Source of the DNA: Paraglaciecola sp. T6c
GTDB lineage: Bacteria; Pseudomonadota; Gammaproteobacteria; Enterobacterales; Alteromonadaceae
Direction: 5' to 3'
Length of the DNA: 64,000 nucleotides
Assembly: GCF_000014225.1 (NCBI RefSeq)
Contig: NC_008228.1
Location: 4,526,001-4,590,000, forward strand
The notes under the pieces were generated by a model. The model worked only from the letters and a program-made list of their open reading frames with translations. It was not told where the DNA came from and made no database searches. Each line of letters opens with the position of its first letter. Position 1 is the first letter of the stretch. Shown here one piece after another: positions 11,842 through 28,175 of the stretch. The translations under genes were made by a program, and so were the position numbers.

Positions 11842-14112
11842 CTACTCTATTGATAGCTCTACCACGTCTTTTCTTGCTGCCACTCTAAGTGTTATTAGTA
11901 TGGCGTTGTCGTTTATATCGGTAATGTAATCCACCGTATCGGGTAATTGGCCAAGTACCTCGAACGAGGCGGTTTCGAGCATGTACTTCCAAAGCTGATA
12001 TTGGTCATTTATGCCGTAAATAACGTCATTTTTTACGATGAAGTGTTGATGGCTGCCTTGTGTTGCCAGTTCGGGTATAAGTGTATTTTCAATTGCGCCG
12101 GATAGCCAAAACCTATCTGCATTGTCTTTATAAATCAGTTCGCCACGATCGGTTTTTGTAGCCCACGTGACTTCGTGATTGGTTAAAATACTAAAGTCAC
12201 TGTTACTGAGATTCAGCTCTACCAAAGTACTGACTCCCCGATAGAGAATATTGGCGATAATCGTTTTATTCACGCTGTCCCAGTGGAATAAGCTTTTCAC
12301 TGGGTAACTCAGTGAAATGCTTTCTTCTGCGCCGTTTAAATAAAGGCGTGTTAGTTGGGATGACGCATTCACAAGTAAGCTTTGGCCATCTGCGTCCCAC
12401 AGTATGTTTCGCACATAGGTATTAGCAGGAAATTGGCTACGCTGTTTTGTGTAATCGTTGTCTGCGGCATTGTGTGCGCCATTGTGGGGAAAGTCGTTGT
12501 ATGAAGCGGTGCTGGCTAAACCTTCCTGGCGTGAAGCAGTACTGCCCTGCGCTAAGTTGCTTGTCCATACCTGTGATGTGCCATCCCCCTCAGAGTAGTA
12601 GGCAATAAGGTTTCCATTGGGTTGGTACTTTGCTCGGTCTTCTTCCTGCATAGAGCGCACGACTGTTTCATACTCAACAGTGGCACCTAAAGTGTCAGTC
12701 TGTTGCATACGAGAGTAAGAGAATTGTGATAACGGGACAGATACGATGTCGCTGTCATAATGCCCCTTAATGGCTAACATCTTTTTACCGTTGGGGTGAA
12801 ATAAGGGCGTACCTATAGCATCGGTAAGTGGCATGCTTATAGCGCTAATATCACCGTCAAACGATACCGTGAACAGTTGCTTGCCAGTGCTAAATATTAG
12901 GCGCCCCTCTATCGGGGAAAAGTTGGGGTAAATAGTGCCATATTGCGGGATCTCGCCGCGAAAATTAATCGGGTTACTAGAGAGCAGAGCTCCCTCTGGC
13001 GTCAGTTTTTCGATATAGAGTTTACCGCTTTCGTGCACGGAGGTAAGCGCAATGACGTTATATTTTTTTGAGAAGTCGTAAGACACCACGCTGCCATTAT
13101 TCACCTCATACAGTAATGCGCTTTTGTCTGCTTTCACAGAATAGCGAATTAACTTCCAGCGCCCCTGCTCCTTTTGCAAAAGCGCAATATCATTTGCACT
13201 CAACCATGTTGGGCTTTTAATGTCAGTGTGCTTACATTCCATTAAAGTGGTCGGTGTTTGTGGCGATAGCAATGCTTGCTCAAAATCTAGCTGTTGTAAT
13301 AGAAAGCACTTTTTCTGCAAGGCGGGCGCTGAACAGTTGTTCTGTTTTACAAAAATGAGTGAAGTGCCATCTTCAGAAAAAGCGAGATTACCATACGAGC
13401 CTAAATCACGAGTCAGTTGGAACTCTTGTTGAGTCTCGATGTTTTTTGCCCATAAATGGCTTGTGCACATCACCTCGGGAAAGCGCTGAAATACGATGAA
13501 TTTCCCATCAGGTGAATACGCACTGGCCAGCTCTCTGTTATCGGTTGATGTAAGCAATCGAATATCGTCAATGAGCAGTGGGCTAGCAGGCGAAGGATTA
13601 TGTACGGAGGAAGGCCATAGAGTACTGGTGATACTAATCACTAGCGCAAACACAAGCACAGTAAATAAGCTTAATACGAAGATGTGCTTGGCGCTAAACC
13701 CTGCTTTTACGACTTTATTGGTGCCGAGCTTCGCGTGTTGATTAGGAGGGCTTTTATCCAATGTCACACTATCACCAACATTCCTTTTTTGATGATCTTC
13801 CCAGCGAATAGCAGCCTCTAAACTGTAGCCCTTTTTAGCATGGGTTTTAATCAGGCCTTGTGCCTTGCCATCATCGCCGAAGGCTTTTCTTAGCTGCGCA
13901 ATACAACGCTGTAGAGAATTGGGCGAGACGACTGTGTCTTTCCATACCTGATTCAGTAAATCTTCTTGGCTTACCACATCGCCTTGATGCTTAGCGAGGT
14001 AGGTTAAAACGGCGAGGGCTTTAGGTGGCAGTGTTTGGGTATGTTCGTTGTGCGTTATTTGGTTTCTTGGCAAGTTAACAAAGAAGTCACCAATCCAATA
14101 TTGTTCGGTCAT
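11842..14112 (-). CDS. CadC/ToxR-like transmembrane transcriptional regulator with beta-propeller sensor
   Basis: A 756-residue one-component regulator. Residues about 5-100 form a winged-helix OmpR/CadC-type DNA-binding domain (LPPKALAVLTYLAKHQGDVV, then SPNSLQRCIAQLRKAFGDD and THAKKGYSLEA). A single membrane helix (about 143-165) follows. The periplasmic part is a TolB/PD40-like propeller with repeated motifs such as SPDGKFIVFQRFP, SEDGTSLIF and PNGNLIAYYSEGD. ATG at 14112 has GAGGG just upstream; the longer frame to 14193 adds a non-domain N-terminus. It lies divergent from the serine hydrolase gene, a natural target. The signal sensed is unknown. Its 3' end shares sequence with debris at 8.9 kb. 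Confidence 0.85.
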   Translation of the reverse strand: MTEQYWIGDFFVNLPRNQITHNEHTQTLPPKALAVLTYLAKHQGDVVSQEDLLNQVWKDTVVSPNSLQRCIAQLRKAFGDDGKAQGLIKTHAKKGYSLEAAIRWEDHQKRNVGDSVTLDKSPPNQHAKLGTNKVVKAGFSAKHIFVLSLFTVLVFALVISITSTLWPSSVHNPSPASPLLIDDIRLLTSTDNRELASAYSPDGKFIVFQRFPEVMCTSHLWAKNIETQQEFQLTRDLGSYGNLAFSEDGTSLIFVKQNNCSAPALQKKCFLLQQLDFEQALLSPQTPTTLMECKHTDIKSPTWLSANDIALLQKEQGRWKLIRYSVKADKSALLYEVNNGSVVSYDFSKKYNVIALTSVHESGKLYIEKLTPEGALLSSNPINFRGEIPQYGTIYPNFSPIEGRLIFSTGKQLFTVSFDGDISAISMPLTDAIGTPLFHPNGKKMLAIKGHYDSDIVSVPLSQFSYSRMQQTDTLGATVEYETVVRSMQEEDRAKYQPNGNLIAYYSEGDGTSQVWTSNLAQGSTASRQEGLASTASYNDFPHNGAHNAADNDYTKQRSQFPANTYVRNILWDADGQSLLVNASSQLTRLYLNGAEESISLSYPVKSLFHWDSVNKTIIANILYRGVSTLVELNLSNSDFSILTNHEVTWATKTDRGELIYKDNADRFWLSGAIENTLIPELATQGSHQHFIVKNDVIYGINDQYQLWKYMLETASFEVLGQLPDTVDYITDINDNAILITLRVAARKDVVELSIE

Positions 14113-14392
14113 ATACCCTCTAACCCGTAAATAAACATGAAACAGGCATGCAAAAGCCTGATTAATTTTTATTACCGTACCACTATAAATCATTGATAAA
14201 AATAAGGTGTTTGCCGAACACGCAGAAATCAGCGAAAAATCAGACTTTTATCATGCATATCTTGTTCAGTTCGTTAGCGTGGTGACTAACAGCGTTTATG
14301 TGCCACTGACACCGTGCGCTTTTGCGCGTTTTGCGCTCCCTCAGGTGTCGCCTTGCACATTATCGCGGCAACGAAAACAACAAGGAAATAGT

Positions 14393-15679
14393 ATGACCAT
14401 GACAATAAAAGCAACCGCTTTACTCGCAATTGTATGCTGCTTTGGAGTCGCAAATGTTTCAACGGTATGGGCCGGGGAAGAACGTACGCTCCCCCCAAAA
14501 GCGACTCCCGATGAAGCTCTGATTACCCATTGGCGAATGCCCGAAATAGAAAAACGGTTTATGGATATCCCTGAGTTAGATTCCCCTTACATAGATACAT
14601 CGCCCGTTGATTTAGGTGACGGTATCGCCGTAGGCCAATTCAGCCATAAAGCTACCCATGCAATTACCGATGAAGGCGATGAAGGTAACAAATCTATCGA
14701 AGAAGCGGCAATAATAACACTCGCCAAAGAGCTGGCAGCAGGTGATCACGGTAAATACGACAGTCTGTTGATTGCTAAAGGTGGCACTTTGGTGTTTGAG
14801 TCATACTACAAAAGGGGCAGAGTCGATTTGCCTCATCCTCAATCTTCGGCCACCAAGAGTTATACCTCATTAGCCCTAGGCCGAGCGATTCAAATGGGAT
14901 ATTTATCCATGGACGATTTAGATAAACCGGTAATTAGTTTTCTAAACGATATCGACAGCACCAAGCTTGTTAAAGGCGCAGAAACCATCACGCTACACCA
15001 CGCATTGACTATGACCACAGGTATCGATATTTCTGAGGAGGGGTGGGATACCATGGCGACGAACCTAAAGCGAGTTAAAGGGCAAGGTGAAATACAAGCT
15101 ATTTTAGAAGACAGTGCGCCTGTCACCGAACAAACACAGGTTTTTAAATACGGTACAGGCCCTCAATTTGTAATGCAGGTGATTGAGGCTGTAGTGCCTG
15201 GTTCAGCTGAAGCGTTTATCCGCACTGAGTTGTTTGGCAAGCTAGGTATTACAAACTACGATTGGCGCTTAGCGCCCAGTGGTTTGCCTGAGTCTGGATG
15301 GAAGGTAAGCGTGACCGCCCGAGATATGCTTAAAGTGGGGCTGCTCATTGACAACAACGGTAAATGGAATGGGGAACAACTTCTCCCTGAAGCGTATTTG
15401 CAACGCGCCACCAGCAGGCAAATATTGACCGGAGATGACGATATTTACGGCGGCGGTGAGTTAGTATCAAATCAAGGTTATGGCTATTTTTTCTGGGGAA
15501 CCGACTTGGCACTAAAAGGTAAAAAGCACCATGCTTTTTCAGCCCAAGGAGGCGGCGGTATGTATATTCTGTTAGTGCCAGACTTTGATCTTGTGGTGGT
15601 GGTCACTGCCCACGAGCGAGAAGATGTTACGCAGCAATTAATAGCCGAGCGCATTTTGCCTTTACTTTCCAAGCCTTAA
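14393..15679 (+). CDS. Exported serine hydrolase of the beta-lactamase (class C/esterase) fold
   Basis: A 428-residue protein with a signal peptide (about 1-27, ending TVWA) and a penicillin-binding/beta-lactamase-type domain. The nucleophile motif SxxK is Ser152-Ala-Thr-Lys155 (SSATKSYTSLALG). Other landmarks are LTMTTGIDISE near 204-214, GTGPQFVMQVIE near 250, and a C-terminal GGGGMYILLVPDFDLVVVVT. Homologues include esterases, D-aminopeptidases and penicillin-recognising enzymes, so beta-lactam resistance should not be assumed. ATG at 14393 is preceded by AAGGAAAT; the open frame begins earlier but that part is not signal-peptide-like. It is divergent from the CadC-like regulator, with a shared 280-bp control region. 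Confidence 0.85.
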   Translation: MTMTIKATALLAIVCCFGVANVSTVWAGEERTLPPKATPDEALITHWRMPEIEKRFMDIPELDSPYIDTSPVDLGDGIAVGQFSHKATHAITDEGDEGNKSIEEAAIITLAKELAAGDHGKYDSLLIAKGGTLVFESYYKRGRVDLPHPQSSATKSYTSLALGRAIQMGYLSMDDLDKPVISFLNDIDSTKLVKGAETITLHHALTMTTGIDISEEGWDTMATNLKRVKGQGEIQAILEDSAPVTEQTQVFKYGTGPQFVMQVIEAVVPGSAEAFIRTELFGKLGITNYDWRLAPSGLPESGWKVSVTARDMLKVGLLIDNNGKWNGEQLLPEAYLQRATSRQILTGDDDIYGGGELVSNQGYGYFFWGTDLALKGKKHHAFSAQGGGGMYILLVPDFDLVVVVTAHEREDVTQQLIAERILPLLSKP

Positions 15680-15891
15680 TGTAAATTAAAACGTCAAAGA
15701 ATCTAGCACTTCAAGTAGCTTTTACGAACGACGCTGAGTTGAACCCTCAGCGAAAGGTGCAAATGGCGCCTGGTCAAAATTAAGTGACCTGCGCCCTCGG
15801 CGTCTCTGCCCCTTGATGATATTAAGCTCATTAGCGGTCTTCAGTATATTGCCCTCCTGGTATTTAGCTGAGCTCTTATCAGGTTGCTCAG

Positions 15892-16488
15892 TTATAAATC
15901 TATATCTTTGATACCAGCAGCTCGTTCGACAAATCCCCATACTGATTGTTGGGCTGTAGCAACTGGCAGAGGGGGTTTGGTGGTGAGTGCAATTCTAACA
16001 CCTGACATCACACCAGAAAGCAGCATTGACGCTAACATTAATGGGTTGTACGTTTCATCGATTTCGCCTTTGCGCTGTGCATCGGCGATGTTTCTTGCGC
16101 CTAATTGCTCTAGCCTGTCATTGCGCTGCCATTCTTCTTTGGTAAACGCAGGGTCGGTTCGTAGCCGCGTTGCTGCAATCATTGCAACGGGATCATCATA
16201 AAATAACGAGACCATGGCATGAACCCGTGCTTTTTCTCTCTCTTTCCAAGTGTCACCATCAAAGGGGACACCTGCAACTTTGTCGTCAAAATCGTGGTAA
16301 AATTCATTTACGATGGCGTTGATAAGCCCAGCTTTATTACCGAAATGATAGTATGTCAGTCCGTCAGAGACCCCTGCCCGTTTGGCTACATTCGCAACGT
16401 CTAAATCCCCATTGCCGATAACAATTTCAACCCTAGCCGCTTCTAATAAGCGCATTCTAGTGGACTTTTTCGCTGCTTTGCCTTCCAT
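15892..16488 (-). CDS. TetR/AcrR-family transcriptional regulator
   Basis: A 198-residue TetR-type repressor. The N-terminal helix-turn-helix (about 9-55) contains TRMRLLEAARVEI, VANVAKRAGVSDGLTYYHF and GNKAGLINAIV. The rest is an all-helical ligand-binding domain. ATG at 16488 overlaps the TGA of the upstream dioxygenase gene by one base; a GTG one codon earlier is also possible. The coupling makes it likely that the repressor controls its own operon, probably through the palindrome at 17373-17387. The ligand may be the dioxygenase substrate or product; that is inference. Confidence 0.9.
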   Translation of the reverse strand: MEGKAAKKSTRMRLLEAARVEIVIGNGDLDVANVAKRAGVSDGLTYYHFGNKAGLINAIVNEFYHDFDDKVAGVPFDGDTWKEREKARVHAMVSLFYDDPVAMIAATRLRTDPAFTKEEWQRNDRLEQLGARNIADAQRKGEIDETYNPLMLASMLLSGVMSGVRIALTTKPPLPVATAQQSVWGFVERAAGIKDIDL

Positions 16489-17345
16489 CACATATTCTCT
16501 AATAGTCTTTTAGGGTGCATGCCATTGACCATTCCAATAAACGGAGGGTGAATGGAAAACCCTAACATTCTGCGTATATCCTCTGACAAATCCGCGACTA
16601 CGTTTAATGGCGTACCCAAAAAGTAGTTTTCTTGGGTACGCAACCATGGCTCACAGTACTGGCAAGTAACCGCAAGGCGGTTACCACTTGAATGGTTTGC
16701 ACCACCACCATGCCAAAACGTTCCGGGATAAAAGAGTACAGACCCAGCTTTCATGACTGCTGATTTCGCTTGTTCTGCTGTGGGCTTTTGGTTGTCGTCC
16801 CATGTGTGGCTATTTGGCACGATCACAGTTGCCCCATTGGACTGTGTGAAATCATCAATTGCCCAAATGGTAGCGGCGCCTAACGGTGCCCTAGGCCGAG
16901 AGATAGGGTAAAAGCCATCATCGAAGTGCAGTGGCTGCCCAGATTCGCCCGGCAACAAATTTATGACCTGCAATTGGGACAAGAGATAATTTGGCATAAA
17001 TAATTTGTCGAGTAAGGCAAGAATTCGCGGATGATCAACCAAGCGGTCCAGTGCTCTGGTTTTGTTCAGAACGCCGTACAATCTTTGTGTTTTGTATCCT
17101 TCGAATGAATTCCTACCCGTTTCATTTAGCAAAGGCAAAATTGCATTTTTAACCGTCGTAATTTCGTCACTCGACAACACGTTCTCGATGACAATATAGC
17201 CGTTTTTTTCCACCTGTTTTAGATCAGCTCGTGTCACATGTTCCGGTATCAACTTGACCTTCTCACTCTGGGTCTGTCGATATTTACCAGCATTGTCCCC
17301 TGCAGCATATGCGTTATCGATATTCTTTGTTTTAAGCGTTGACAT
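16488..17345 (-). CDS. PhyH-family Fe(II)/2-oxoglutarate dioxygenase
   Basis: A 285-residue phytanoyl-CoA dioxygenase-family oxygenase. It has the metal-binding HxD motif His140-Phe-Asp142 (PLHFDDGFYP) and a distal His212 in GTFWHGGGANHS, with the 2-oxoglutarate-binding Arg probably in SGNRLAV. The N-terminal half has VEKNGYIVIENVLSSDEI, typical of the family. ATG at 17345 is chosen because AGGGG lies 5 bases upstream; six further codons are open. It is translationally coupled to the downstream TetR gene. PhyH enzymes hydroxylate varied small molecules or natural products, and the substrate cannot be told from sequence. Confidence 0.87.
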   Translation of the reverse strand: MSTLKTKNIDNAYAAGDNAGKYRQTQSEKVKLIPEHVTRADLKQVEKNGYIVIENVLSSDEITTVKNAILPLLNETGRNSFEGYKTQRLYGVLNKTRALDRLVDHPRILALLDKLFMPNYLLSQLQVINLLPGESGQPLHFDDGFYPISRPRAPLGAATIWAIDDFTQSNGATVIVPNSHTWDDNQKPTAEQAKSAVMKAGSVLFYPGTFWHGGGANHSSGNRLAVTCQYCEPWLRTQENYFLGTPLNVVADLSEDIRRMLGFSIHPPFIGMVNGMHPKRLLENM

Positions 17346-17372
17346 AAGTCCCCTTGAATCCATTCTACTGAG

Positions 17373-17387
17373 TTGAGTTCAACTCAA
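17373..17387. promoter_or_regulatory. Palindromic operator candidate for the TetR protein
   Basis: TTGAGTT-C-AACTCAA is a perfect 7-1-7 palindrome about 28 bases upstream of the dioxygenase start. TetR repressors typically bind such sites at their own promoters. The first gene of the operon starts right here and its second gene encodes a TetR protein, so autoregulation is the simplest reading. Confidence 0.55.
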
Positions 17388-17751
17388 ATTTAAACACAAT
17401 TGATTTACTGGTCAAATTTTGAACATAAAAAGATGGGTGAGAATTTATGGGGGGGTGAAACGGGTCAGTGTAAAATAGCTGAAGCTGATTCAAATTCCGT
17501 CTTCAAACCTTTTTTAAATAAACCGACTACATGCGCTTCAAGAAATACAAAAACATTGAGCTACTCATTTAAAGGTTTTTAGCTTCAAGAAATGAGGCTT
17601 TCAAAAAGTCCACAAATTTAATGGTTTGTGAAATTTTGTCATGCCATCAGTTCGTTGGATTGTGATGCGAGACCACTTTGCACAAACCTAAGGGGTTTCC
17701 AATTAATGAGCTAGCATTGTCACTTGCCCTCATTTGTCAGTTGCAAATGCT
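17388..17751. other. Divergent intergenic region, no gene seen
   Basis: The region lies between the dioxygenase-TetR operon (minus) and the ABC exporter operon (plus). A 60-codon open frame at 17400-17582 has no recognisable domain or good ribosome binding site and is not called. The sequence is AT-rich. The Zur-like inverted repeat begins at its right end. Confidence 0.5.
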
Positions 17752-17802
17752 TATCGTTATAATATAACATAGCCACCTTTATTATGTTATATTATAACGA
17801 TA
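17752..17802. promoter_or_regulatory. Twin Zur-box-like operators in a perfect 20-bp inverted repeat
   Basis: Arms 17752-17771 and 17783-17802 are exact reverse complements with an 11-bp spacer. Each arm contains the near-palindrome GTTATA-A-TATAAC (17756-17768 and, inverted, 17786-17798). GTTATAATATAAC is the core of the Zur box known in gammaproteobacteria upstream of znu genes. Two boxes lie immediately before the GTG of the exporter operon, so binding would block transcription when zinc is sufficient. AT-rich promoter elements probably overlap the boxes. The same structure could also form a long DNA or RNA hairpin. Confidence 0.7.
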
Positions 17803-17812
17803 CGGATTCTGT

Positions 17813-18550
17813 GTGATAGAAATAGATCAGGCTAAGGCTGTCATTGAAGCAAGTTCGCTTTGCGTCAACATAAAAAATAACCCTATTTTGAAAAATTTAA
17901 ACTTCCAGGTTAAAGCGGGTGAAATATACGCTTTGCTTGGTGGCAATGGGGCGGGTAAATCAACCACACTGAAGACGCTTTTAGGGTTTAACGCCCCAAG
18001 CAGTGGCTCGGTACAAGTAGATGGTAAAGAGGTGGTCAAAGCCCTGAACCATGTACGCGAAAAAACGGCTTACTTACCAGAATCTGCGACCTTATACACT
18101 CACCTCACCGCTAGAGAAAACGTCAATTATTTCTTATCATTAGCAGATATTGAAAAAACAGATGCAGAGGTTGAGCAAGCGTTTGATCGCGTTGCTTTAC
18201 AAACGAACGCGCGGGATCGTCACATGCAAACCTACTCAAAAGGCATGCGACAAAAAACGGCCATCGCGCTGGCCTTGCTGCGTGAAGCCCCCATTTTTTT
18301 ATTAGATGAACCCACTTCGGGCCTCGACCCTGTGGCTATCGATGAATTTAACCAACTGGTCCGTGAGCTTGCCTCTGGCGGCGCTACCATATTAATGGTG
18401 ACTCACGACGTTTACGGTGCTTGCCAAGTTGCAGATCGTATCGGCTTATTGCGCGATGGCGAACTTGTTGGGGAATTTTCGGCCCCGCAAGGCGGGCAGA
18501 TCGAAACCGAACAAGTACACGCGGCATTTGCCCAACGAGGCGCAGCGTGA
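17813..18550 (+). CDS. ABC transporter ATP-binding protein (NosF/CcmA-like)
   Basis: A 245-residue ABC ATPase with Walker A GGNGAGKSTTLKTLLG (about 43-58), Q-loop/LPES segment near 86, signature YSKGMRQK near 142, Walker B IFLLDEPTSGLDP near 161 and switch His in VTHDVYGACQ. It resembles ATPases that pair with ABC-2 permeases such as NosY. The frame starts with GTG only 11 bases after the inverted repeat, with no clear Shine-Dalgarno site, so the transcript may be nearly leaderless. The stop overlaps the next gene's GTG by 4 bases (GTGA). It powers the two permeases encoded downstream; the direction of transport is probably export or extraction. Confidence 0.92.
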   Translation: MIEIDQAKAVIEASSLCVNIKNNPILKNLNFQVKAGEIYALLGGNGAGKSTTLKTLLGFNAPSSGSVQVDGKEVVKALNHVREKTAYLPESATLYTHLTARENVNYFLSLADIEKTDAEVEQAFDRVALQTNARDRHMQTYSKGMRQKTAIALALLREAPIFLLDEPTSGLDPVAIDEFNQLVRELASGGATILMVTHDVYGACQVADRIGLLRDGELVGEFSAPQGGQIETEQVHAAFAQRGAA

Positions 18551-20010
18551 GCGGCCATTCATCTTCAATGGCACCTTTTGCAAAAATGATGATTGTCGCC
18601 AAAGACGAGTGGCGATATTGGTTGCGCTCTAAATTGGCCATATCCGTGTTGGCCATCGGCTTACTGCTCACATTATCTTCTGTGATCGTTACCGCCATTA
18701 ATACCATGGAGTTGAGCCATACTCGCCATGAATTACAAAACGATGCAGATCAAACTTTTGTTGACCAACCCGACAGACACCCTCACAGAATGGTGCATTA
18801 TGGGCACTATGCTTTTAGAGCCCCATCGCCACTGAGTGTGTTAGACCCTGGGGTTGATGCCTACACTGGAAATTCTATCTTTCTGGAAGGACACCGACAA
18901 AACAGCGCCATGTTCGCTGACCAAAAACAGGGCACAGCATTAACTCAGCTGGGTAGCCTGACACCTGCATTTATCGTACAAACCTTAGCCCCACTACTCC
19001 TCATACTTATTGGGTATAGTTCGGTCAGTCGTGAGCGCGAGTCACACACACTTACCTATCTGTTATCACAAGGCACTTCAGGGTTTACCCTCATTGCTGG
19101 CAAGGGCTTGGCGTTAATGTCGGTCATTGGCCTTATTTTAGTGCCGCTAACCATTTCAGCGCTTTTTAGCCTGCATGAAGGGGAAAGCATCGCCGCTATT
19201 TTAGGCTTCATTCTGGGTTATGCCCTTTATCTAACAGTATGGGCGTTGTTGGTTTTGCTATTTTCTAGCGCGCTTTCAAAAAACAGTGAAAGCTTCACCG
19301 CTTTAGCGCTCACTTGGATTTTACTCTGTGTGGTTATGCCGCGAGTTGCTAGCTCAACGGCAATCACAACAGTGCCTGCGGCAGGAAAACTAGAAACAGA
19401 TTTCGCTGTTATCGCCGAACTGCGAAAACTGGGTGATGGTCACAATGCCAACGACCCTGCATTTGCGCAAATAAAAGCGTCCCTTTTAGAAAAATACAAT
19501 GTGGACTCAATTGAGCAACTGCCAGTTAATTATAGAGGTGTCATCGCCATGACATCAGAAGCAAAATTAACAGAGGTGTTAAACGAGTTTGCCGAGCAAC
19601 GCATGCAAACTGAGGTAAACCAAACCCAGGTATCTAGATATTTCGGTTGGTTATCACCTATGGTTGCCATTCGCTCACTATCAATGCTTACAGCGGGTAC
19701 AAGCATAGAAACCCATCATAAGTTTTTACGTGAAGCTGAGGACCTCAGATTTAACTTTGTTCAAAGCCTAAATAAAGTGCATGCAGAGCGGCTAACTTAC
19801 CAAGATGACATGAATCGCAACAAAGACCTTGATTCGTCAGACAAAGCTCGAGTTGCAGCAACAAACTGGCAAGTGTTAGACGATTTCTCGTTCGCTGTTG
19901 ATAAGCCTAGCCTTCGATTACAACGCAGTGCACCTGCATTTTTACAACTGCTGGCCTGGGTAGCAGCGCTCATTATAGTCATTCGTTGGGTAGGGAAACG
20001 CTTAGTATGA
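18547..20010 (+). CDS. ABC-2-type permease with DUF3526-like architecture (first subunit)
   Basis: A 487-residue membrane protein. There is one N-terminal helix (about 28-50), a roughly 110-residue extracytoplasmic domain, four or five helices (about 135-300), a large second extracytoplasmic region and a final helix (about 463-483). This long-loop layout is typical of DUF3526 ABC permeases that accompany NosF-like ATPases. GTG at 18547 overlaps the ATPase stop (GTGA) and is preferred over an ATG at 18568. The stop overlaps the next gene by 4 bases. With the second permease it probably forms a heterodimeric transporter. Substrate unknown; context suggests a zinc-related compound. Confidence 0.82.
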   Translation: MSGHSSSMAPFAKMMIVAKDEWRYWLRSKLAISVLAIGLLLTLSSVIVTAINTMELSHTRHELQNDADQTFVDQPDRHPHRMVHYGHYAFRAPSPLSVLDPGVDAYTGNSIFLEGHRQNSAMFADQKQGTALTQLGSLTPAFIVQTLAPLLLILIGYSSVSRERESHTLTYLLSQGTSGFTLIAGKGLALMSVIGLILVPLTISALFSLHEGESIAAILGFILGYALYLTVWALLVLLFSSALSKNSESFTALALTWILLCVVMPRVASSTAITTVPAAGKLETDFAVIAELRKLGDGHNANDPAFAQIKASLLEKYNVDSIEQLPVNYRGVIAMTSEAKLTEVLNEFAEQRMQTEVNQTQVSRYFGWLSPMVAIRSLSMLTAGTSIETHHKFLREAEDLRFNFVQSLNKVHAERLTYQDDMNRNKDLDSSDKARVAATNWQVLDDFSFAVDKPSLRLQRSAPAFLQLLAWVAALIIVIRWVGKRLV

Positions 20011-21317
20011 GTTATATGTTTAAACAACTTAGCCGTGAATGGCGATTTATGCTGCGCCAAAAGTACTTACTGGTGCTACTGGGCTGCGCTATCTTGATCT
20101 CTGGGTTTTCAGTCCAAAGTGGCTTAAATGAAATTGAGCAACAGCAGCAAACCATTGAGCGCTTAACAGCAGCCGATGCGGCTGACCGCACAGACGCACA
20201 GCATAAGCATGATGAAATTGGGATGTTAGCCTATTACACCTTCCATCTTACATATTCAGCCCCTTCGAATTTAGCCTTTGCGGCCTTGGGGGAGCGCGAT
20301 ATTTACCCTTGGAAGCACCGTATTAAAATGCTCGCCATCGAAGGGCAAATATACGAAAGCGATACCCAAAACGCGGAGCTGACCCAAGCGGGTAAAATTG
20401 ATTTTTTGTTTGTGATCAGTGCGCTTTCGCCGCTGATTATTATCCTGCTGTTCCATGACTTATTCGCGAATGAACGCAGCAGCGGTAGGCACGACCTGCT
20501 CGTCACCACGGCAAAATCCCCGTGGGCGTTGTGGGGAGCGCGGGGCGCGATACGTTTCATAGCTATTTTCTTGTGCTTAATGCTGCCGTTTTATGTCGGC
20601 ACTTGGGTCAGTGGCTCGTCATTGGCTGCGATAGGGTTAGTTTCGTTCTACTGCTTTATCTACTTAGCGTTTTGGGCTTTGTTAAGCGTTTACTGGGGCA
20701 GGAACGCAAGCAGCGCCCCAAAAGTGGCATCTGGGTTAATAGGCATATGGGTATTGTTCGCTTTTATTACTCCAATTTTAGGTGACTTAAGCATTAATAA
20801 ACTTGTTCACTCTCCTAAGGGTGGCGATATCGTGTTTACCCAGCGTGAAGCCGTTAATGATGCGTGGGATCTGCCTAAAGAAGTCACTATGGATGCGTTC
20901 ACCGCTACCTACCCTGAATGGAAAGACCATGTCGCCATGCAAAGCATGTTTGAATGGAAATGGTATTACGCCTTTCAACAAGTCGGTGACCAGATCGCAG
21001 CTCCAATGTCGCAAGAGTATCGCGCTGCGGCAAAGAAAAAATATGAATTAGCAGGGTATGCATCTTTACTTTCGCCGCCTTTGTTATTGCAGCGCATGTT
21101 AACTCGTCTTGCAAAAACGGACGCTGTTGCCGCGTTTAAATACGAGCAACACTTACGGGACTTTCACCAAGAGCTTCGTTTGTATCACTACCCTTTCCTA
21201 TTTGCTCAAGGCGAATTCGACAAAGGGGAACTTGATAACATGCCAAATTTTGAAAAATTTGTTACTGAACAACAAAACGATCGCAAAACAGATAGCGTTC
21301 AGTCGACCAATAAATAA
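20007..21317 (+). CDS. ABC-2-type permease with DUF3526-like architecture (second subunit)
   Basis: A 436-residue membrane protein with the same topology as its neighbour: a first helix (about 20-38), a helical extracytoplasmic domain rich in Gln and Asp (QQQQTIERLTAADAADR), a cluster of four helices (about 120-255) and a long C-terminal soluble part ending in a hydrophilic tail. No C-terminal anchoring helix is evident, unlike the first subunit. ATG at 20007 overlaps the preceding stop (ATGA), showing translational coupling. It is probably the partner half-transporter of the 18547 gene. Confidence 0.8.
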   Translation: MSYMFKQLSREWRFMLRQKYLLVLLGCAILISGFSVQSGLNEIEQQQQTIERLTAADAADRTDAQHKHDEIGMLAYYTFHLTYSAPSNLAFAALGERDIYPWKHRIKMLAIEGQIYESDTQNAELTQAGKIDFLFVISALSPLIIILLFHDLFANERSSGRHDLLVTTAKSPWALWGARGAIRFIAIFLCLMLPFYVGTWVSGSSLAAIGLVSFYCFIYLAFWALLSVYWGRNASSAPKVASGLIGIWVLFAFITPILGDLSINKLVHSPKGGDIVFTQREAVNDAWDLPKEVTMDAFTATYPEWKDHVAMQSMFEWKWYYAFQQVGDQIAAPMSQEYRAAAKKKYELAGYASLLSPPLLLQRMLTRLAKTDAVAAFKYEQHLRDFHQELRLYHYPFLFAQGEFDKGELDNMPNFEKFVTEQQNDRKTDSVQSTNK

Positions 21318-21344
21318 CACTCAAACTATAAAAAAGGTTTTACC

Positions 21345-23468
21345 ATGAACTCTGGAACACACGGGCTAAAGCTCACTCATCTCAGTGCTTGCTTAGCTAG
21401 CCTGTTTATTCATCACGGCGTTGCAGCAGATGAACAAGTTGCGTCACAAAACGTCGACCAAGAAAATGCTATCGAAACCTTGAGTATCGTAGGGTCACGA
21501 CAAGCATATCAAGGTAACTTTAGTCCTCTAGAAACCCCCCAATCAGAATTAAAAATAAATTCTGAAGCGCTAGCAAATGCAGGGGCAATTGATTTAAACC
21601 AAGCATTAGATTTGTCGGCCTCTGTTGCCCGTCAAAATAATTTTGGTGGACTGTGGAACAGCTTTGCGTTGCGGGGATTTGTGGGTGATGAAAACCTACC
21701 CAGTAACTATTTGGTAAATGGCTTTAATGCAGGCAGAGGCTTTGGCGGCTCTCGCGATTTATCAGGCATAGAATCAGTTGAAGTGTTAAAAGGCCCACGT
21801 GCCGCACTATTTGGTCGCGGTGAGCCAGGGGGCACGGTTAACCTTGTTACTAAGCGCCCAACTTTTGATACTGCAGGAGAAATAAAGGTATCCGCAGGAA
21901 GCTACGATACATACCGAGCTGATTTAGATTACACCACCCCGTTGAGCGACGATGTAGCGGTGCGTTTTGTCGGCTTCTATGAAGATGCTGGCAGCTTTCG
22001 TGACACGATAAAAAGCAAGAAAGAAGGCTTTAGCCCATCAATTGCGTGGGAAATTAGCGAGCAAAGCACGCTTGTTTACGAATTAGAATACGCTCATCAA
22101 GAAGTACCTTTCGACCGAGGTGTGTTAGCGATAGACAACAAGCTTGGGGTCATTCCACAAAGCCGCTTTCTCGGTGAGCCCGCCGACGGCCCGATTAAAA
22201 CTGATACGCTGGGGCATCAGGTAGAGTTTCAACACGACTTCGACGATAACTGGAGTGTATTACTCGGCGCTAACTACCGTGATACCTCATTAGAGGGCTT
22301 CGCGACGGAAACAGGTTTTTCTGGCGTCGTTGACGATGAAGTAAATCGTTTTCGCCGTTACCGTGACTATGATGCCAAATACCAAGTCTTTCGCGCTGAG
22401 CTAACCGGTAATTTAGAAATAGCAGGTGTAGAGCACCGTTTAATCGTGGGTGTTGATTCAGACAAGTTTGAGAATGACCAATTTGCTCTACGTGACCGTA
22501 CCACAGAGCAATACATCAACGTATTTTCCCCGGTTTATACTGCTGCAAATGCGTTAGCAAATGACTTTTCTACTCAAATTGATCGCGTTGAAACACAAGA
22601 ATCTCTTGGTGTGTTTATACAAGATCAAATCAGCATAACCGACAAGCTCGATGTGCGTATCGGCGCACGGTTTGACGACTATCAACAAACAATGAATAAC
22701 CGCTTATCTGAAAGTCAGTCAAAACAAACAGAATCACGGGTTAGCCCTCAATTTGGCATAGTGTATGAAGCATCAGATACGCTTTCATTGTACGCCGCTT
22801 ATGGCGAAAACTTCCGCCCATTATCTGGCACCGACAGCAATGGTGACGGCTTTGAGCCAAACCAGTCGACCTCTGCCGAGGCGGGTATTAAGTTCACGCT
22901 AAACGATGGTGCGTTGTTTGGAACGGTCTCCATATTCAAAGTCGAACAAGACAATCTTCTCGTGGTTGACGACCCGACTAGTTTTACTTACGCAGCGATT
23001 GGCGAAGCCGAAAGTCAAGGCATAGAAATAGACATCAACGGTGAAATAGCTGACGGATTAACCCTTTGGGCCTCTTATGCTTATGTGGACGCGAAAACCA
23101 AAAACGCTTTCTTTGATGGCAATTTTGGTTACACCATTGAAGCTGGGACAGACTTACTCAATGTGCCTGAGCAGCAACTCAGTCTGCAACTGGTTCAATT
23201 GCTTGAACTAGATGGTAAAGACCTCGAAGTCGGTGGTGGCTTAGTTTACGTAGACAAAAGAAATGGTTACTTTGGTACCGATTTCACTCTACCTAGCTAT
23301 ACCACTGCCAGAGCGTTCATCGCTTATGACATAACGAAGTCGATTTCGTTACGGGCTGAAGTTGATAATTTATTTGATAAAGATTATTACACCAACTCAT
23401 TTGCAGACGCTTGGGTACAACCGGGTACTCCCCGTAGCTTTAGAGTGTCTGCCTCATACCACTTCTAG
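21345..23468 (+). CDS. TonB-dependent siderophore-type receptor
   Basis: A 707-residue outer-membrane receptor. It has a signal peptide (about 1-28, ending GVAADE), TonB-box-like ETLSIVGS near 44-51, a plug with ALRGFVGDENLPSNYLVNG and IESVEVLKGPRAALFGRGEP near 135-160, and a beta-barrel ending in Phe (FRVSASYHF). Wording is of the TIGR01783 siderophore class. It follows the exporter by 27 bases with AAAAAAGG upstream, so it belongs to the same Zur-box-preceded operon. That argues for uptake of a zinc-bound chelator rather than a ferric siderophore, though the regulation is inferred from operator sequence alone. Confidence 0.9.
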   Translation: MNSGTHGLKLTHLSACLASLFIHHGVAADEQVASQNVDQENAIETLSIVGSRQAYQGNFSPLETPQSELKINSEALANAGAIDLNQALDLSASVARQNNFGGLWNSFALRGFVGDENLPSNYLVNGFNAGRGFGGSRDLSGIESVEVLKGPRAALFGRGEPGGTVNLVTKRPTFDTAGEIKVSAGSYDTYRADLDYTTPLSDDVAVRFVGFYEDAGSFRDTIKSKKEGFSPSIAWEISEQSTLVYELEYAHQEVPFDRGVLAIDNKLGVIPQSRFLGEPADGPIKTDTLGHQVEFQHDFDDNWSVLLGANYRDTSLEGFATETGFSGVVDDEVNRFRRYRDYDAKYQVFRAELTGNLEIAGVEHRLIVGVDSDKFENDQFALRDRTTEQYINVFSPVYTAANALANDFSTQIDRVETQESLGVFIQDQISITDKLDVRIGARFDDYQQTMNNRLSESQSKQTESRVSPQFGIVYEASDTLSLYAAYGENFRPLSGTDSNGDGFEPNQSTSAEAGIKFTLNDGALFGTVSIFKVEQDNLLVVDDPTSFTYAAIGEAESQGIEIDINGEIADGLTLWASYAYVDAKTKNAFFDGNFGYTIEAGTDLLNVPEQQLSLQLVQLLELDGKDLEVGGGLVYVDKRNGYFGTDFTLPSYTTARAFIAYDITKSISLRAEVDNLFDKDYYTNSFADAWVQPGTPRSFRVSASYHF

Positions 23469-23559
23469 TATTGTGATAGTCAATTGGTCATTCACCTCGG
23501 GTAAATCGAAGTAAGTTTACCCGTCGCGCTGCCAGTTCGAACTATTCTGAATGCCTAAA

Positions 23560-23595
23560 AAAAAGCCCGCAGATCCAAAGGTCTGCGGGCTTTTT
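23560..23595. terminator. Strong bidirectional rho-independent terminator
   Basis: AAAAAGCCCGCAGA (23560-23573) pairs with TCTGCGGGCTTTTT (23582-23595): a GC-rich stem flanked by A and T runs, so it works in both directions. It ends the receptor operon on the plus strand and the M24 peptidase gene on the minus strand. Confidence 0.93.
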
Positions 23596-23619
23596 GTTGC
23601 TTGATAGAACACGCTGGAG

Positions 23620-24882
23620 TTATTGCGCCGCCGTTTCTCTCAGCCCAAACGGGTTATCTATACTCTCGCTTGGCTCGGTAAACCAGCGTGGGCCATCGTC
23701 TGTAATGTAAAAATGATCTTCTAAGCGAATGCCAAATTCATCGGGTATCACTAGCATTGGCTCATTGCTAAAACACATACCTCTGGCCAAAGGCGTTTTA
23801 TTGCCGCCAACTAAGTAAGGCCACTCGTGTATATCTAAACCAATGCCATGGCCGGTGCGATGTGGGCAACCTGGTGTTTGGTACTCTGGGCCTAAACCTT
23901 GTGAGGCTAAATAGTGACGCGCCGCGGCATCGACCTCTTCACATGGCGCACCGATTTGGGCGGCATTAAAGGCAGCAAGTTGTGCGGCTTTTTCATCGTT
24001 CCAGCACTGTCGCTGGCGACGCGTTGGTTCACCAAATACATACGTTCGGGTAATGTCGGATATATAGTCGTGCACTTTGCACCCGGTATCGATTAACACG
24101 ACATCCCCTGCCTTGAGAATTTGCGGATCCTTAACACCATGTGGGAATGACGTTGCAACGCCAAACAACACGATACAAAAATAATTGCCCTGCGCACCGA
24201 CCTTTTGGTGTGCTTTTTCAATGAAGGCTTCCACCTCTGTAGTGCTTATTCCTGGGCGCAACATACTTGCGGTTGCTTGATGCACAGCCAGTGTCATATT
24301 CATGGCCCCTTGCATCAACGCCAACTCATTATCAGACTTGTGCATTCTACAGTGGGCAGTCACCTCTTGGGCATTGATGAGGGTTAAGCCCGTTTGGGCT
24401 TTATTGATGCCGTCGAATATAAAAAACTGCGCGCTTTCATCTATGCCAACTGTTGCGGTAGTCGCTATGTTTAATTGCTCTAACACATCAACAAATAAGC
24501 GATAAGGGTTCTCGTGCTCTTGCCAACCATGAATGGGGCCGTCTATGACTTTAAAACCATTTAGACTGCCAATTTCAAAGTGCGGCGCGATATATTGCAC
24601 AGCGCCGTTTGCTGGTAAAATTGCCCCGACCATGCGCTCACTGGCATACCATTTCATGCCGGTAAAATACGTTAGATTTGTACCTGCATTCAGATAAATC
24701 GCGTCAATATTATGGGCTCGCATATACGCTTGGGCTTTAGTGATGCGCTGCAAGTATTCCTCAGACTGAATAGGCACAAGGTGTTGAGTCATATCGCTTA
24801 ATGTAGCTAATGCCTGCTCGGATGTTTGCGTGCCAATTCCTGTGCCGGTGCCTGCAGTGGTGCCATTATCAAAAGTCCCCAT
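23620..24882 (-). CDS. Xaa-Pro aminopeptidase, M24 family
   Basis: A 420-residue pita-bread metallopeptidase. The creatinase-like N-terminal domain (about 40-175) precedes the catalytic domain, where the metal ligands are visible: Asp in VLIDTGCKVHD, Asp in ISDITRTYVF, His in HRTGHGIGLDIHEWP, Glu in SNEPMLVIPDEFG and Glu in IRLEDHFYI. Family members release an N-terminal residue before proline, or act as X-Pro dipeptidases. The first 20 residues are an unusual Gly/Thr run (TTAGTGTGIGTQ), probably disordered. AGGAG precedes the ATG. The gene stands alone, ending at the shared terminator. Confidence 0.92.
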   Translation of the reverse strand: MGTFDNGTTAGTGTGIGTQTSEQALATLSDMTQHLVPIQSEEYLQRITKAQAYMRAHNIDAIYLNAGTNLTYFTGMKWYASERMVGAILPANGAVQYIAPHFEIGSLNGFKVIDGPIHGWQEHENPYRLFVDVLEQLNIATTATVGIDESAQFFIFDGINKAQTGLTLINAQEVTAHCRMHKSDNELALMQGAMNMTLAVHQATASMLRPGISTTEVEAFIEKAHQKVGAQGNYFCIVLFGVATSFPHGVKDPQILKAGDVVLIDTGCKVHDYISDITRTYVFGEPTRRQRQCWNDEKAAQLAAFNAAQIGAPCEEVDAAARHYLASQGLGPEYQTPGCPHRTGHGIGLDIHEWPYLVGGNKTPLARGMCFSNEPMLVIPDEFGIRLEDHFYITDDGPRWFTEPSESIDNPFGLRETAAQ

Positions 24883-25125
24883 TTTTTCTCCTATTGCTAG
24901 GCGCTGACAAAAAGCATAGTCGAGCGACCTATTAAATACTTAATGAATGTGTCATGCAGGCGATGATAGCACTGACATTGTTTAAAATGAGCAGTGATAG
25001 CTTACTTATTGTTTTGTCTCAAATTGTGAGGTTAGCGAGTTCACCATGTTCGCTTATCTTCTTTTTCTCAACGGTATTTTTACGCCTTACTGACAAAAGC
25101 ACACAGCGTTAACAACAAAGCTGTT

Positions 25126-26115
25126 TCAATCAGCAGTAAATAACTTAGCGCGAACGGTTGCTCGGTATTCCCTTGGTGAGGTGGCCAGTAACTTCACAAA
25201 TAAAGAGGTAAAATAGCCCACATCTTGATAGCCAATTTTATCTGCTACTTCGCTTACGTTTAAATTACTTGTTTGTAGTAAATCTTTGGCGATTTCAATC
25301 CGGATTTTTTGTAAATACTGCAGCGGTGTTTGGCCAGTGGCATTTTTAAAACGGCGATTAAATGTGCGTACGCTCATTTCAAAGCGCCCTGCTACCTCGC
25401 CCAGGCTAATCTGTCGGTTGTAATTGTCTTGCAGCCAAATTTGCGCTTGTACTATTTCCTCATCAGGGTGCTGTTTTGTGCTGCCTTCAAAATAACTGGT
25501 TTTCTCGTACGGACGGCGAATTTCATGCGAAAAATTTCGCTCAACCACACTGGCTATTGCTTCGCCATAGAGTCGTTTTACAAAATGCACGGTAAGATCG
25601 GCCATTGCATTCACGCTAGCCGAACAATACAGATTGCTAGCTTGGGTAATAAAGTATTGACGCTTTAATTTGACCCTTGGGTAGTCTCGTTGAAACTGAT
25701 CAAAATAATGCCAGTGAGTGGTAGCAGGTTTGTCATTCAGCAATCCTGCTTCAGCCAAGAAGCAACAGCCTGTGCCTACCGCAGAGAGCATCGCACCATT
25801 TTCATAAGCCTTGCGTAACCAGGCTAAAATTTCGGGGTGTTTTTTTACAATTGTCCGGGGGTTTCGCCATAAAGCAGGTAAATAAATAATATCGCTGTCA
25901 CCCACATCTGCCAGTTCGGTATCGGGTAACAATGAAAAACCAATACTGGTTTTAATCGGCAATTTGTCTATCGACGTTGTTTGAATGAGCACGGGTTCAA
26001 CTTGGCTACCTTCCTTTGCCCGAGCAGCACTTTCGGCGGCACGCAACATTTCAAAAGGCAAAGTAGCGCTAGTGGCCAGCATATTATCGCAAAGTAAAAA
26101 GGTAATTTTATGCAT
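25126..26115 (-). CDS. GlxA-family transcriptional regulator (DJ-1/PfpI domain plus AraC HTH)
   Basis: A 329-residue regulator with an N-terminal DJ-1/PfpI-like domain (about 3-180), including the Cys-containing nucleophile-elbow-like VGTGCCFLAEAGLL, and a C-terminal AraC-type double helix-turn-helix (about 225-320: ISLGEVAGRFEMSVRTFNRR, then LNVSEVADKIGYQDVGYFTS). GlxA-type proteins sense small molecules through the DJ-1-like domain. It is divergent from the FabY gene with a 143-bp shared control region, so control of that gene is possible but unproven. Confidence 0.9.
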   Translation of the reverse strand: MHKITFLLCDNMLATSATLPFEMLRAAESAARAKEGSQVEPVLIQTTSIDKLPIKTSIGFSLLPDTELADVGDSDIIYLPALWRNPRTIVKKHPEILAWLRKAYENGAMLSAVGTGCCFLAEAGLLNDKPATTHWHYFDQFQRDYPRVKLKRQYFITQASNLYCSASVNAMADLTVHFVKRLYGEAIASVVERNFSHEIRRPYEKTSYFEGSTKQHPDEEIVQAQIWLQDNYNRQISLGEVAGRFEMSVRTFNRRFKNATGQTPLQYLQKIRIEIAKDLLQTSNLNVSEVADKIGYQDVGYFTSLFVKLLATSPREYRATVRAKLFTAD

Positions 26116-26258
26116 AAGTCGGCTTATTCAATTTTGTGGATATTGGCAAAGATAGCGAACAAGTGGCCTAAACACCACGTTTTATGGCCAATATGACCCT
26201 GCCAGAAGCTAAACCTAGGCAGTAAACTGCTGGCACTCAAACAATTGGTATCTTAAAT

Positions 26259-28175
26259 ATGTCTTCATTACCGGTCATCGTTGGATTTGGTGGTTTTAAT
26301 GCCGCTGGTCGCAGTTCGTTTCATCATGCTTATAAAAGAATGGTAATAGAAAGCTTGCCTGCGAGTGAACAAGAAGAAACCCTGCTTGGTTTGGCCACAA
26401 TGATGAAGTTGGTGCGTTTTGAAAACGGACGCTTTTTTGATAACGCGCGTGAGAATAATCAACAAACTTTAACACCAGAAGAAGTCGTTGAACGTTTCTC
26501 AGAACAAATTTTAAATTCGACGCTGATTCGTACCATCGAAAAAAGCCATTTCGATGTTAATGCCGTGCATTGGCAAAAAAACGTCACTATGCACTCAGCA
26601 GACAAAGCCGGTATCTGTTTTGAACTAACGCGTAAACAATTACCTGAGCCAATACCATCAAATTGGCAGTTAACTGATATTGATAAAGACCGAGTGAAGG
26701 TTAACATAATCGGCGAAGTCGATTTCAAAGTAGACACTTATCGTGAATGCCCAGTAAAAGTAGCAGGGCAATTACCCAGCGGATTTAACCCCGAAGATCA
26801 CTACAATGCCCGCTTTCATCCTCGCGCCTTACAAATGGCGATTATGGGTGCATCAGATGCCATTCGATCATTAGGCATGGAATGGAAAACAATCGCCGAT
26901 GCGGTCAAACCAGACGAAATAGGTGTATACGCCAGTAATGCTATGTCACAACTGGATGAAAATGGTTTTGGTGGCATGTTGCAATCTCGCTTGAAAGGCG
27001 GCCGGGTCAGTACTAAGCAGTGCCCACTAGGTTTAAACACTATGCCTGCTGACTTTGTGAATGCTTATGTATTAGGGAATGTAGGTCATACGAGTGCAAT
27101 TGTTGGGGCCTGTGCCAGTTTCCTTTATAACCTCAGTGCGGCCATTGAAGATATAAAAAGTGGTAAACGCCGGGTGGCCGTCGTTGGCAATGCCGAAGCC
27201 CCTATATTGCCAGAGGTCATTGATGGTTATGCCACCATGGGCGCACTTGCCAGCGAAGACAATTTAAAACGTTTAGATCAATCTGATACCGTTGACCATC
27301 GCCGCGCTAGTCGTCCTTTTGGCGAAAATTGTGGTTTCACCATAGCAGAATCAACCCAATACGTGGTGTTGATGGACGATGCATTGGCGTTAGAACTAGG
27401 GGCGGATATTCATGGCGCAGTAAGCGATGTATTTATTAACGCTGACGGTTATAAAAAATCCATATCAGCACCGGGTCCAGGTAACTACATCACCATGGCT
27501 AAGGCTGTCGCTGCGGCCCGTGCGATTGTGGGTGATGAGTCTGTTCGTGAGCGCTCGTTTATTCAAGCTCACGGTTCAAGTACGCCAGCTAATCGCACCA
27601 CAGAATCACGTATTTTTCATGATGTTGCTAAGATTTTTGATATTCAAAACTGGCCAGTCACTGCGGCAAAAGCCTATTTAGGCCATCCGTTGTCACCCGC
27701 AAGTGCCGAACAGTTAGTGGTGAGTCTTGGGGTGTTTAAACATGGATTTATCCCGGGTATTAAAACCATTGATAAAGTGGCAGATGACGTGTTTGATGAG
27801 CGCTTAAATATCTCAATAACAGATATCGATAAAGGTGCAGGAAATATCGACGTCGCCTTTTTGAACTCCAAAGGATTTGGCGGTAACAATGCCACTGCGA
27901 CGTTATTATCGCCTCACGTTGTTGATAGCATGCTCGCTAAGCGATACAGCAGTGAAGATATCGCCGCTTATGAGTCTCGCCGTGAACAAGTACGTGAAAA
28001 AGCCATGGCTTATGACCTATCTGCCAACCAAGGCAACTTTGACACTATTTACCATTTTGGTCAGGATCTTATCAAAGAGGATGACATTCAAATGACCAGC
28101 CAAGAAATTCGGATTGCTGGATTTGCTAACCCTATCGACTTAAGAATGAAAAACCCTTTTGAAGATATGATTTAG
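26259..28175 (+). CDS. fabY: Beta-ketoacyl synthase of the FabY type
   Basis: A 638-residue thiolase-fold condensing enzyme. The triad is Cys285 (IVGACASFL), His438 (QAHGSSTPANR) and His476 (YLGHPLSPAS), the Cys-His-His set of chain-elongating ketosynthases. The length and the long N-terminal part before the catalytic Cys match FabY, the acetyl-CoA:malonyl-ACP synthase that starts fatty acid synthesis in Pseudomonas aeruginosa in place of FabH. Domains are KS N-terminal (about 190-365) and KS C-terminal (about 370-555), followed by a helical tail. It stands alone, with a strong terminator downstream. The FabY assignment is by resemblance; other single ketosynthases are less likely. Confidence 0.85.
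   Translation: MSSLPVIVGFGGFNAAGRSSFHHAYKRMVIESLPASEQEETLLGLATMMKLVRFENGRFFDNARENNQQTLTPEEVVERFSEQILNSTLIRTIEKSHFDVNAVHWQKNVTMHSADKAGICFELTRKQLPEPIPSNWQLTDIDKDRVKVNIIGEVDFKVDTYRECPVKVAGQLPSGFNPEDHYNARFHPRALQMAIMGASDAIRSLGMEWKTIADAVKPDEIGVYASNAMSQLDENGFGGMLQSRLKGGRVSTKQCPLGLNTMPADFVNAYVLGNVGHTSAIVGACASFLYNLSAAIEDIKSGKRRVAVVGNAEAPILPEVIDGYATMGALASEDNLKRLDQSDTVDHRRASRPFGENCGFTIAESTQYVVLMDDALALELGADIHGAVSDVFINADGYKKSISAPGPGNYITMAKAVAAARAIVGDESVRERSFIQAHGSSTPANRTTESRIFHDVAKIFDIQNWPVTAAKAYLGHPLSPASAEQLVVSLGVFKHGFIPGIKTIDKVADDVFDERLNISITDIDKGAGNIDVAFLNSKGFGGNNATATLLSPHVVDSMLAKRYSSEDIAAYESRREQVREKAMAYDLSANQGNFDTIYHFGQDLIKEDDIQMTSQEIRIAGFANPIDLRMKNPFEDMI

Follow-up and report, generated by a model that had tools for sequence, protein, structure and literature searches.

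In Caulobacter crescentus, znuGHI (CC1518-1520), which encodes an "ABC-2 type" ATP-binding cassette (ABC) ATPase and two permeases, lies divergent from the receptor gene znuK (CC1517) (PMC4176598). The available portion of this 2014 report describes Zur binding to the shared promoter at the operator ATTGTTATGATATAACATC, zinc- and Zur-dependent expression of both units, 29-, 38-, 12- and 41-fold increases of znuG, znuH, znuI and znuK in a zur mutant, and failure of a znuK mutant to form colonies on 850 μM EDTA (ethylenediaminetetraacetic acid) unless zinc is added. Zur repression and a role for the receptor in zinc starvation have thus already been shown in that organism. The same portion names the genes as a putative high-affinity uptake system and addresses neither fold nor direction; in the available part of a second paper, znuGHI is counted among zinc uptake systems of the ABC type (PMC6103462). 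Here we analyze a four-gene operon in a 64-kb stretch (the window; positions 4,526,001 to 4,590,000 of NC_008228.1) of the complete 5.19-Mb genome of Paraglaciecola sp. T6c. It encodes an ABC ATPase, two ABC-2 permeases with a DUF3526 domain (PF12040) and a TonB-dependent receptor (Table 1). Judged by sequence, this operon is the gammaproteobacterial counterpart of znuK-znuGHI and belongs to a kind already described.

The identification starts from the operator. The published 19-mer occurs exactly in two of 75 genomes of one genus, in both cases between homologues of the receptor and ATPase genes, the latter followed by homologues of both permease genes (identities in Table 1). From the operator and the gene order, these two loci should be znuK/znuGHI of Caulobacter. 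In a permease tree (FastTree, sample of 72, rooted with the second permease), the window and both Caulobacter loci fall in one 29-tip clade with support 1.00, next to locus L210 (L numbers denote regions compared) and apart from other DUF3526 permeases. With all four genes matched by homologues around the Caulobacter operator and the permeases joined in a single well-supported clade, the operon appears to be a relative of znuK-znuGHI. The Caulobacter operator and the putative one of Paraglaciecola have the same 13-bp core form, and each overlaps a -10 element. However, in Caulobacter the receptor gene is divergent and a single box is shared, whereas in Paraglaciecola the receptor gene is last in the operon and there are two boxes. 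The original prediction, made from the DNA letters of the window, had described the system as outside the textbooks. This fails insofar as the homologous genes were published in 2014 and holds for the transport mechanism, which the available portion of that report does not describe. The available part of PMC13001252 has nothing on these genes, and among the matches listed in the open-licence literature no title concerned this operon in Alteromonadales.

Other described systems resemble the operon in part. With ZnuABC it would share Zur control and a role in zinc hunger, but its permeases are of the ABC-2 type with DUF3526 and a predicted NosY fold, and it has neither an ABC-3 permease nor ZnuA. 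NosDFY(L) has the same permease and ATPase fold and a periplasmic metal theme, whereas the operon has two unlike permeases with a long periplasmic insert, a TonB receptor as partner and no adjoining NosD, NosL or NosZ. In Pseudomonas aeruginosa, the Zur-regulated operons PA2911-2914 and PA4063-4066, which serve import and export of a metallophore complex, likewise combine a receptor with ABC genes, but they form two operons with a siderophore-type ABC importer and a MacB exporter, not DUF3526 proteins (PMC11481552). ZnuD and CbpA are also Zur-regulated TonB receptors. In contrast to these, the operon receptor belongs to the TIGR01783 siderophore receptor subfamily (342.3 bits; cut-off 223.5), and the genome has genes for two ZnuD-like receptors at other sites (L054, L056); the ZnuD model NF038289 is not among the best 25 of the 30 families for the operon receptor. 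The pairing of DUF3526 permeases with a siderophore-type receptor, as first described, agrees with this assignment and with Pfam, which gave ABC_tran in the ATPase, Plug and TonB_dep_Rec in the receptor, and in the permeases only ABC2_membrane and DUF3526, with no MacB or FtsX domain. Since the names of receptor relatives in the Protein Data Bank mix "CntO" and "FoxA" (both for 8b43, 8rm3 and 8rmi; "CntO" for 6i96-6i98), we draw no ligand from them.

Two exact copies of the palindrome GTTATAWTATAAC precede the operon within a perfect inverted repeat, the sole perfect arm pair of 20 bp with a gap of up to 20 in the window. The original prediction had the repeat exactly right, as it did the gene order, the two four-base overlaps from ATPase to second permease and the 27-base gap before the receptor gene. 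It also placed the repeat correctly close upstream, but at 11 bases, and 10 bases separate it from the GTG start of the ATPase gene. The first box contains the -10 hexamer of a promoter that matches 11 of 12 consensus bases with an 18-bp spacer and scores highest between 17600 and 23700; taken together, promoter-like sites are no commoner than in shuffles (9 found, 8.9 expected). With three mismatches allowed, the palindrome pattern occurs at chance level in the window (24 sites; 25.2 expected), and a loose genome scan (one mismatch, middle two bases free) gave 97 matches against 257 for the reversed control. As loose scans are at or below their controls, we place weight only on near-exact boxes.

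The exact palindrome occurs four times in the genome (0.25-0.40 expected from the window composition). Besides the two operon boxes, one copy lies 38 bp upstream of a gene for a receptor that, among NCBIfam models, scores best with ZnuD (409.9 bits; cut-off 950) and one lies 28 bp upstream of a MerC gene. A one-mismatch box, GTTATATTGTAAC, is situated between the gene for a second ZnuD-like receptor (269 bits to the ZnuD model, on a cut-off piece) and a ZrgA-Zur-MerC-ZigA operon. In that operon, the FUR-family protein is closest to Zur (73.9 bits, below the equivalog cut-off of 167) and the ZigA-like GTPase scores 174 bits on a 110-residue piece (cut-off 600). Although the NCBIfam scores for ZnuD, Zur and ZigA are under the curated cut-offs, those of Pfam for MerC, ZrgA, FUR and the receptor domains are above them, and it is the joint company of zinc genes around the same box, not single scores, that identifies the boxes as likely Zur operators. 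As GTTATATTGTAAC adjoins the FUR-family gene, the probable regulator would be encoded next to one of these boxes.

Several further observations concern boxes elsewhere in this genome. A gene for an HlyD-type adaptor (L054 1101-3751), which has opposite-strand neighbors, adjoins the Zur-boxed ZnuD-like receptor gene. Directly before an M1-peptidase/DUF6702 gene pair is the box GTTATATTATCAC (L057 3177-3189, genome 5139176), a possible Zur target. Another, GTTATACTATAAC (L055 3516-3528, genome 384515), is among small genes of no assigned role, with no zinc gene seen near. Weaker boxes in 15 further regions (L058-L072), many of them inside genes or before unrelated-looking genes, were not used.

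The boxes are also conserved in front of related operons. A receptor search over 60 genomes, own genome included, yielded nine orthologous operons besides the window, and all nine have a pair of boxes 22-30 bp apart, neither of them with more than one mismatch. With a profile of the first permease we found 224 relatives in named genomes, and analyzed the best 80, which overlap the close-relative set in six genomes (L099, L100, L101, L109, L112 and L120). In 62 of these 80 loci the ATPase gene comes first and in 18 the receptor gene. The best match to GTTATNNNATAAC within -200 to +40 of the ATPase-first operons was exact in 31 and had one mismatch in 20, two in nine, three in one and four in one, so that 51 of 62 reach zero or one mismatch, as against 3.0% of shuffled regions and 3 of 62 with the reversed pattern. 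Flaws in the scan affect three loci that stay in these counts with two, three and four mismatches, respectively: the stretch was too long in L108 (where the operon starts at a contig end) and too short in L177, and the start was mis-set in L120, which in fact has two exact boxes. The boxed ATPase-first loci cover 16 named genera, including Paraglaciecola, Pseudoalteromonas, Alteromonas, Colwellia, Shewanella and Aliidiomarina; no box at one mismatch was seen in, among others, Vibrio comitans, Shewanella saliphila, Aestuariibacter and both Aliagarivorans. A similar receptor gene is downstream in 44 of the 62, and in the others the contig edge is reached, the receptor gene is on the opposite strand or no receptor is recognized near. 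Among genes for stand-alone receptors (40-46% identical), an exact box is present in L083, L086 and L087, a one-mismatch box in L085 and none in L082 and L084. The second permease gene is split into two open reading frames in L081 (4642-5959; one of the nine close orthologous operons, same genome as L120) and L104 (7443-8780), an apparent frameshift or sequencing error.

From the company of the boxes in the genome, their conservation before ATPase-first operons and the experimentally proven operator before the Caulobacter homologues (PMC4176598), the operon boxes are very probably Zur operators, and the zinc control that had been suspected appears sound. When zinc is plentiful, Zn-Zur would occupy both boxes and block the -10. 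When zinc is scarce, the genes would be expressed and the TonB receptor would bring a zinc complex into the periplasm; that the receptor takes up such a complex is probable. The ABC transporter, composed of two unlike DUF3526 permeases with a NosY fold and one ATPase, would then capture zinc or its complex at a His/Glu site in the first periplasmic loop and either move what is captured or hand it on, replacing ZnuABC. For this inner-membrane acquisition step as part of a Zur-repressed zinc-acquisition operon, we consider the chances about even. Zur binding in Paraglaciecola itself, the ligand and the direction of ABC transport are what we infer.

We favor zinc acquisition at the inner membrane over export of a zincophore because the genome has no ZnuA match and no convincing ZnuB, because DUF3526 and strong ABC-3 matches seldom co-occur and because the permeases carry a conserved His/Glu motif in the first periplasmic loop, which we infer binds metal. 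ZnuA (PF01297) has no match in this genome, and 11 of 14 control genomes were positive. The single match to PF00950 (ABC-3) scores 27.6 bits, above the cut-off of 20.1, in a 376-residue frame. In an even sample of 397 genomes across the phylum, DUF3526 is present in 23 (own genome included). Strong ABC-3 matches (E < 1e-30, counted by hand) are present in 285 of the 397, in 5 of the 23 DUF3526 holders against 280 of the 374 others (Fisher p 4e-7, phylogeny ignored), and in one of ten genomes of the ZnuGHI clade. Caulobacter vibrioides is the sole holder of DUF3526 among the 14 control genomes and also the sole one lacking ABC-3. A receptor-like gene, detected by BLAST to the window receptor, is beside the permeases in 21 of the 22 other holders (some matches are weak, and L213 is doubtful), the exception being L223. 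Boxes were absent even at two mismatches from L212 and L220 of this sample, and L227 and L228 have only two-mismatch boxes. A distant DUF3526 system, L210 (2237-7943; G050), has a different receptor gene between ATPase and permease genes behind paired exact Zur-type boxes, and the Zur link of DUF3526 may thus extend beyond the znuGHI clade.

Several points weigh against this reading. ABC-2/NosY transporters are mostly exporters or mechanical machines, and to our knowledge import by a NosY-type fold is recorded for ABCA4 only. The co-occurrence figures depend on the threshold and ignore phylogeny: when all ABC-3 matches at E 0.001 are counted, weak cross-hits included, DUF3526 holders reach 15 of 23 and the other genomes 318 of 374 (p 0.02). 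In the organism's own family, strong ABC-3 matches are found in one of 36 genomes, most of which lack the operon too. As the family is mostly without strong ABC-3 whether or not the operon is present, the operon is not an obligatory replacement. The inner-membrane step could also fall to a ZIP transporter, which is encoded without a box. No znuGHI mutant is reported in the available portion of PMC4176598. Finally, only 3 of the 18 receptor-first relatives reach zero or one mismatch (shuffles 1.6%, reversed 0 of 18); the best match was exact in two and had one mismatch in one, two in four, three in two and four in nine. The expectation that orthologous operons carry the boxes thus holds for the ATPase-first loci and fails for 15 of the 18 receptor-first ones, which may have a higher guanine-plus-cytosine content or a different form of operator.

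Could the transporter instead export a small zinc-binding molecule whose zinc complex the receptor retrieves, as the original prediction suggested first? The permeases are of exporter type and adjoin a siderophore-type receptor, P. aeruginosa has Zur-regulated operons for both import and export of a metallophore complex (PMC11481552), and a deacylase gene near 10 of the 105 loci compared and an acyltransferase gene in three could provide ligand chemistry. However, the genome has no nonribosomal peptide synthetase condensation domain (4 of 14 controls were positive), no evident biosynthetic gene adjoins the boxes examined, the Pfam-scanned neighbors of the operon include no periplasmic adaptor or outer-membrane channel, and some relatives have the ABC genes and a box with no receptor recognized nearby. 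A search for the opine zincophore enzyme found no match in this genome and likewise none in the control genomes. We regard the proposed zincophore export as unlikely.

It is also possible, with a similarly low likelihood, that the ABC proteins form a NosFY-like mechanical machine, in which ATP-driven movement of the permease's periplasmic domain strips zinc from, or loads it on, a periplasmic carrier or enzyme and no substrate crosses the membrane. The suggestion that metal is extracted at the membrane stays live because the predicted permease fold matches NosY. This likeness comes from fold comparison alone; the permease profile matched none of the sequences of solved structures. Against such a machine, no gene for NosD, NosL, NosZ or a client protein is present among the main open reading frames of 11842-28175 scanned with Pfam, to which the search was limited, and across the 105 loci the ATPase, the permeases and mostly the receptor are the only common parts.

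Side genes that recur in relatives allow a further reading, in which the receptor imports an acylated zinc ligand, an AstE/AspA-like deacylase frees the zinc, an HGSNAT-like acyltransferase re-acylates the ligand and the NosY-fold transporter re-exports it. The deacylase (DoeB-like, PF24827; 5 of 10 Pfam-scanned) is divergent from the ATPase gene in L124, L129 and L162, with a box of at most one mismatch in the shared gap. It lies between permease and receptor genes in L147 and L174, after a permease gene in L170, and farther off or convergent in L141, L149, L155 and L163. The membrane acyltransferase is encoded between receptor and ATPase genes in L155, L157 and L171, and adjoins stand-alone homologous receptors in L077, L086 and L087; in L157, L085 and L221 it is assigned by sequence likeness alone. 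Together these genes suggest ligand chemistry. If such recycling occurs, zinc would be gained without new ligand synthesis for each ion. We consider it quite improbable, and the deacylase homologue of this genome (47% identical) is boxless and away from the operon.

That a different regulator, of the Fur family or unrelated, acts at the boxes and the operon serves another metal is more improbable still: the genome's Zur falls below its equivalog cut-off and the receptor is of the siderophore type, but genes for ZnuD-like receptors, ZrgA, Zur, MerC and ZigA are marked by the same box, which also matches the operator proven in front of the homologous genes in Caulobacter. An efflux pump against excess zinc, which the exporter-like fold might suggest, is scarcely credible, since a Zur box that covers the -10 implies that excess zinc represses the operon.

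In the window, genes for a PhyH-family dioxygenase and a TetR-type regulator, overlapping by four bases, are divergent from the operon and also adjoin it in L073. Downstream are genes for an M24 creatinase/prolidase-like peptidase, kept in the close relatives L073-L076, and a DJ-1/AraC (FtrA-like) regulator.

Table 1. Coordinates of the operon, its putative control elements and neighboring genes in the window, and of side genes in related loci
Feature	Position	Strand	Remarks
-35-like hexamer TTGTCA	17734-17739	+	18 bp from -10
Inverted repeat, perfect	17752-17802		20-bp arms 17752-17771 and 17783-17802, 11-bp gap
Probable Zur box 1 GTTATAATATAAC	17756-17768		exact copy of GTTATAWTATAAC palindrome; kept in relatives
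-10 hexamer TATAAT	17758-17763	+	within box 1
Probable Zur box 2 GTTATATTATAAC	17786-17798		exact copy of palindrome; second box likewise in 9/9 close orthologous operons
ABC ATPase, ZnuG-like	17813-18550	+	GTG start; ABC_tran; 48% identity to ATPase beside published Caulobacter operator
First ABC-2 permease with DUF3526, ZnuH-like	18547-20010	+	38% over 435 aa to Caulobacter
Second ABC-2 permease with DUF3526, ZnuI-like	20007-21317	+	39% over 412 aa to Caulobacter
TonB-dependent receptor, siderophore-receptor subfamily, ZnuK-like	21345-23468	+	34% over 682 aa to Caulobacter
Terminator-like hairpin AAAAAGCCCGCAGATCCAAAGGTCTGCGGGCTTTTT	23560-23595		between receptor and convergent M24 peptidase gene; read from the sequence itself, not listed by the scan
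PhyH-family dioxygenase and TetR-type regulator genes	15892-17363		divergent from operon
M24 peptidase gene	23620-24882		downstream of operon
DJ-1/AraC (FtrA-like) regulator gene	25126-26115		downstream of operon
AstE/AspA-like deacylase, L124	4007-5116		
AstE/AspA-like deacylase, L129	4036-5103		
AstE/AspA-like deacylase, L147	8665-9777		
AstE/AspA-like deacylase, L155	8711-9808		
HGSNAT-like acyltransferase, L155	4026-5195		
HGSNAT-like acyltransferase, L157	4021-5190		
HGSNAT-like acyltransferase, L171	4108-5268		

We found no publication naming DUF3526 in the open-licence literature. Our analysis ties this domain to zinc, as part of a widespread, often Zur-boxed ABC system with a predicted NosY fold that occurs mostly in genomes lacking a strong ZnuB match. 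How zinc moves across the inner membrane of these bacteria can now be asked directly by genetics, and the name of ABC uptake system, given in Caulobacter to a transporter with an exporter fold, is open to test.

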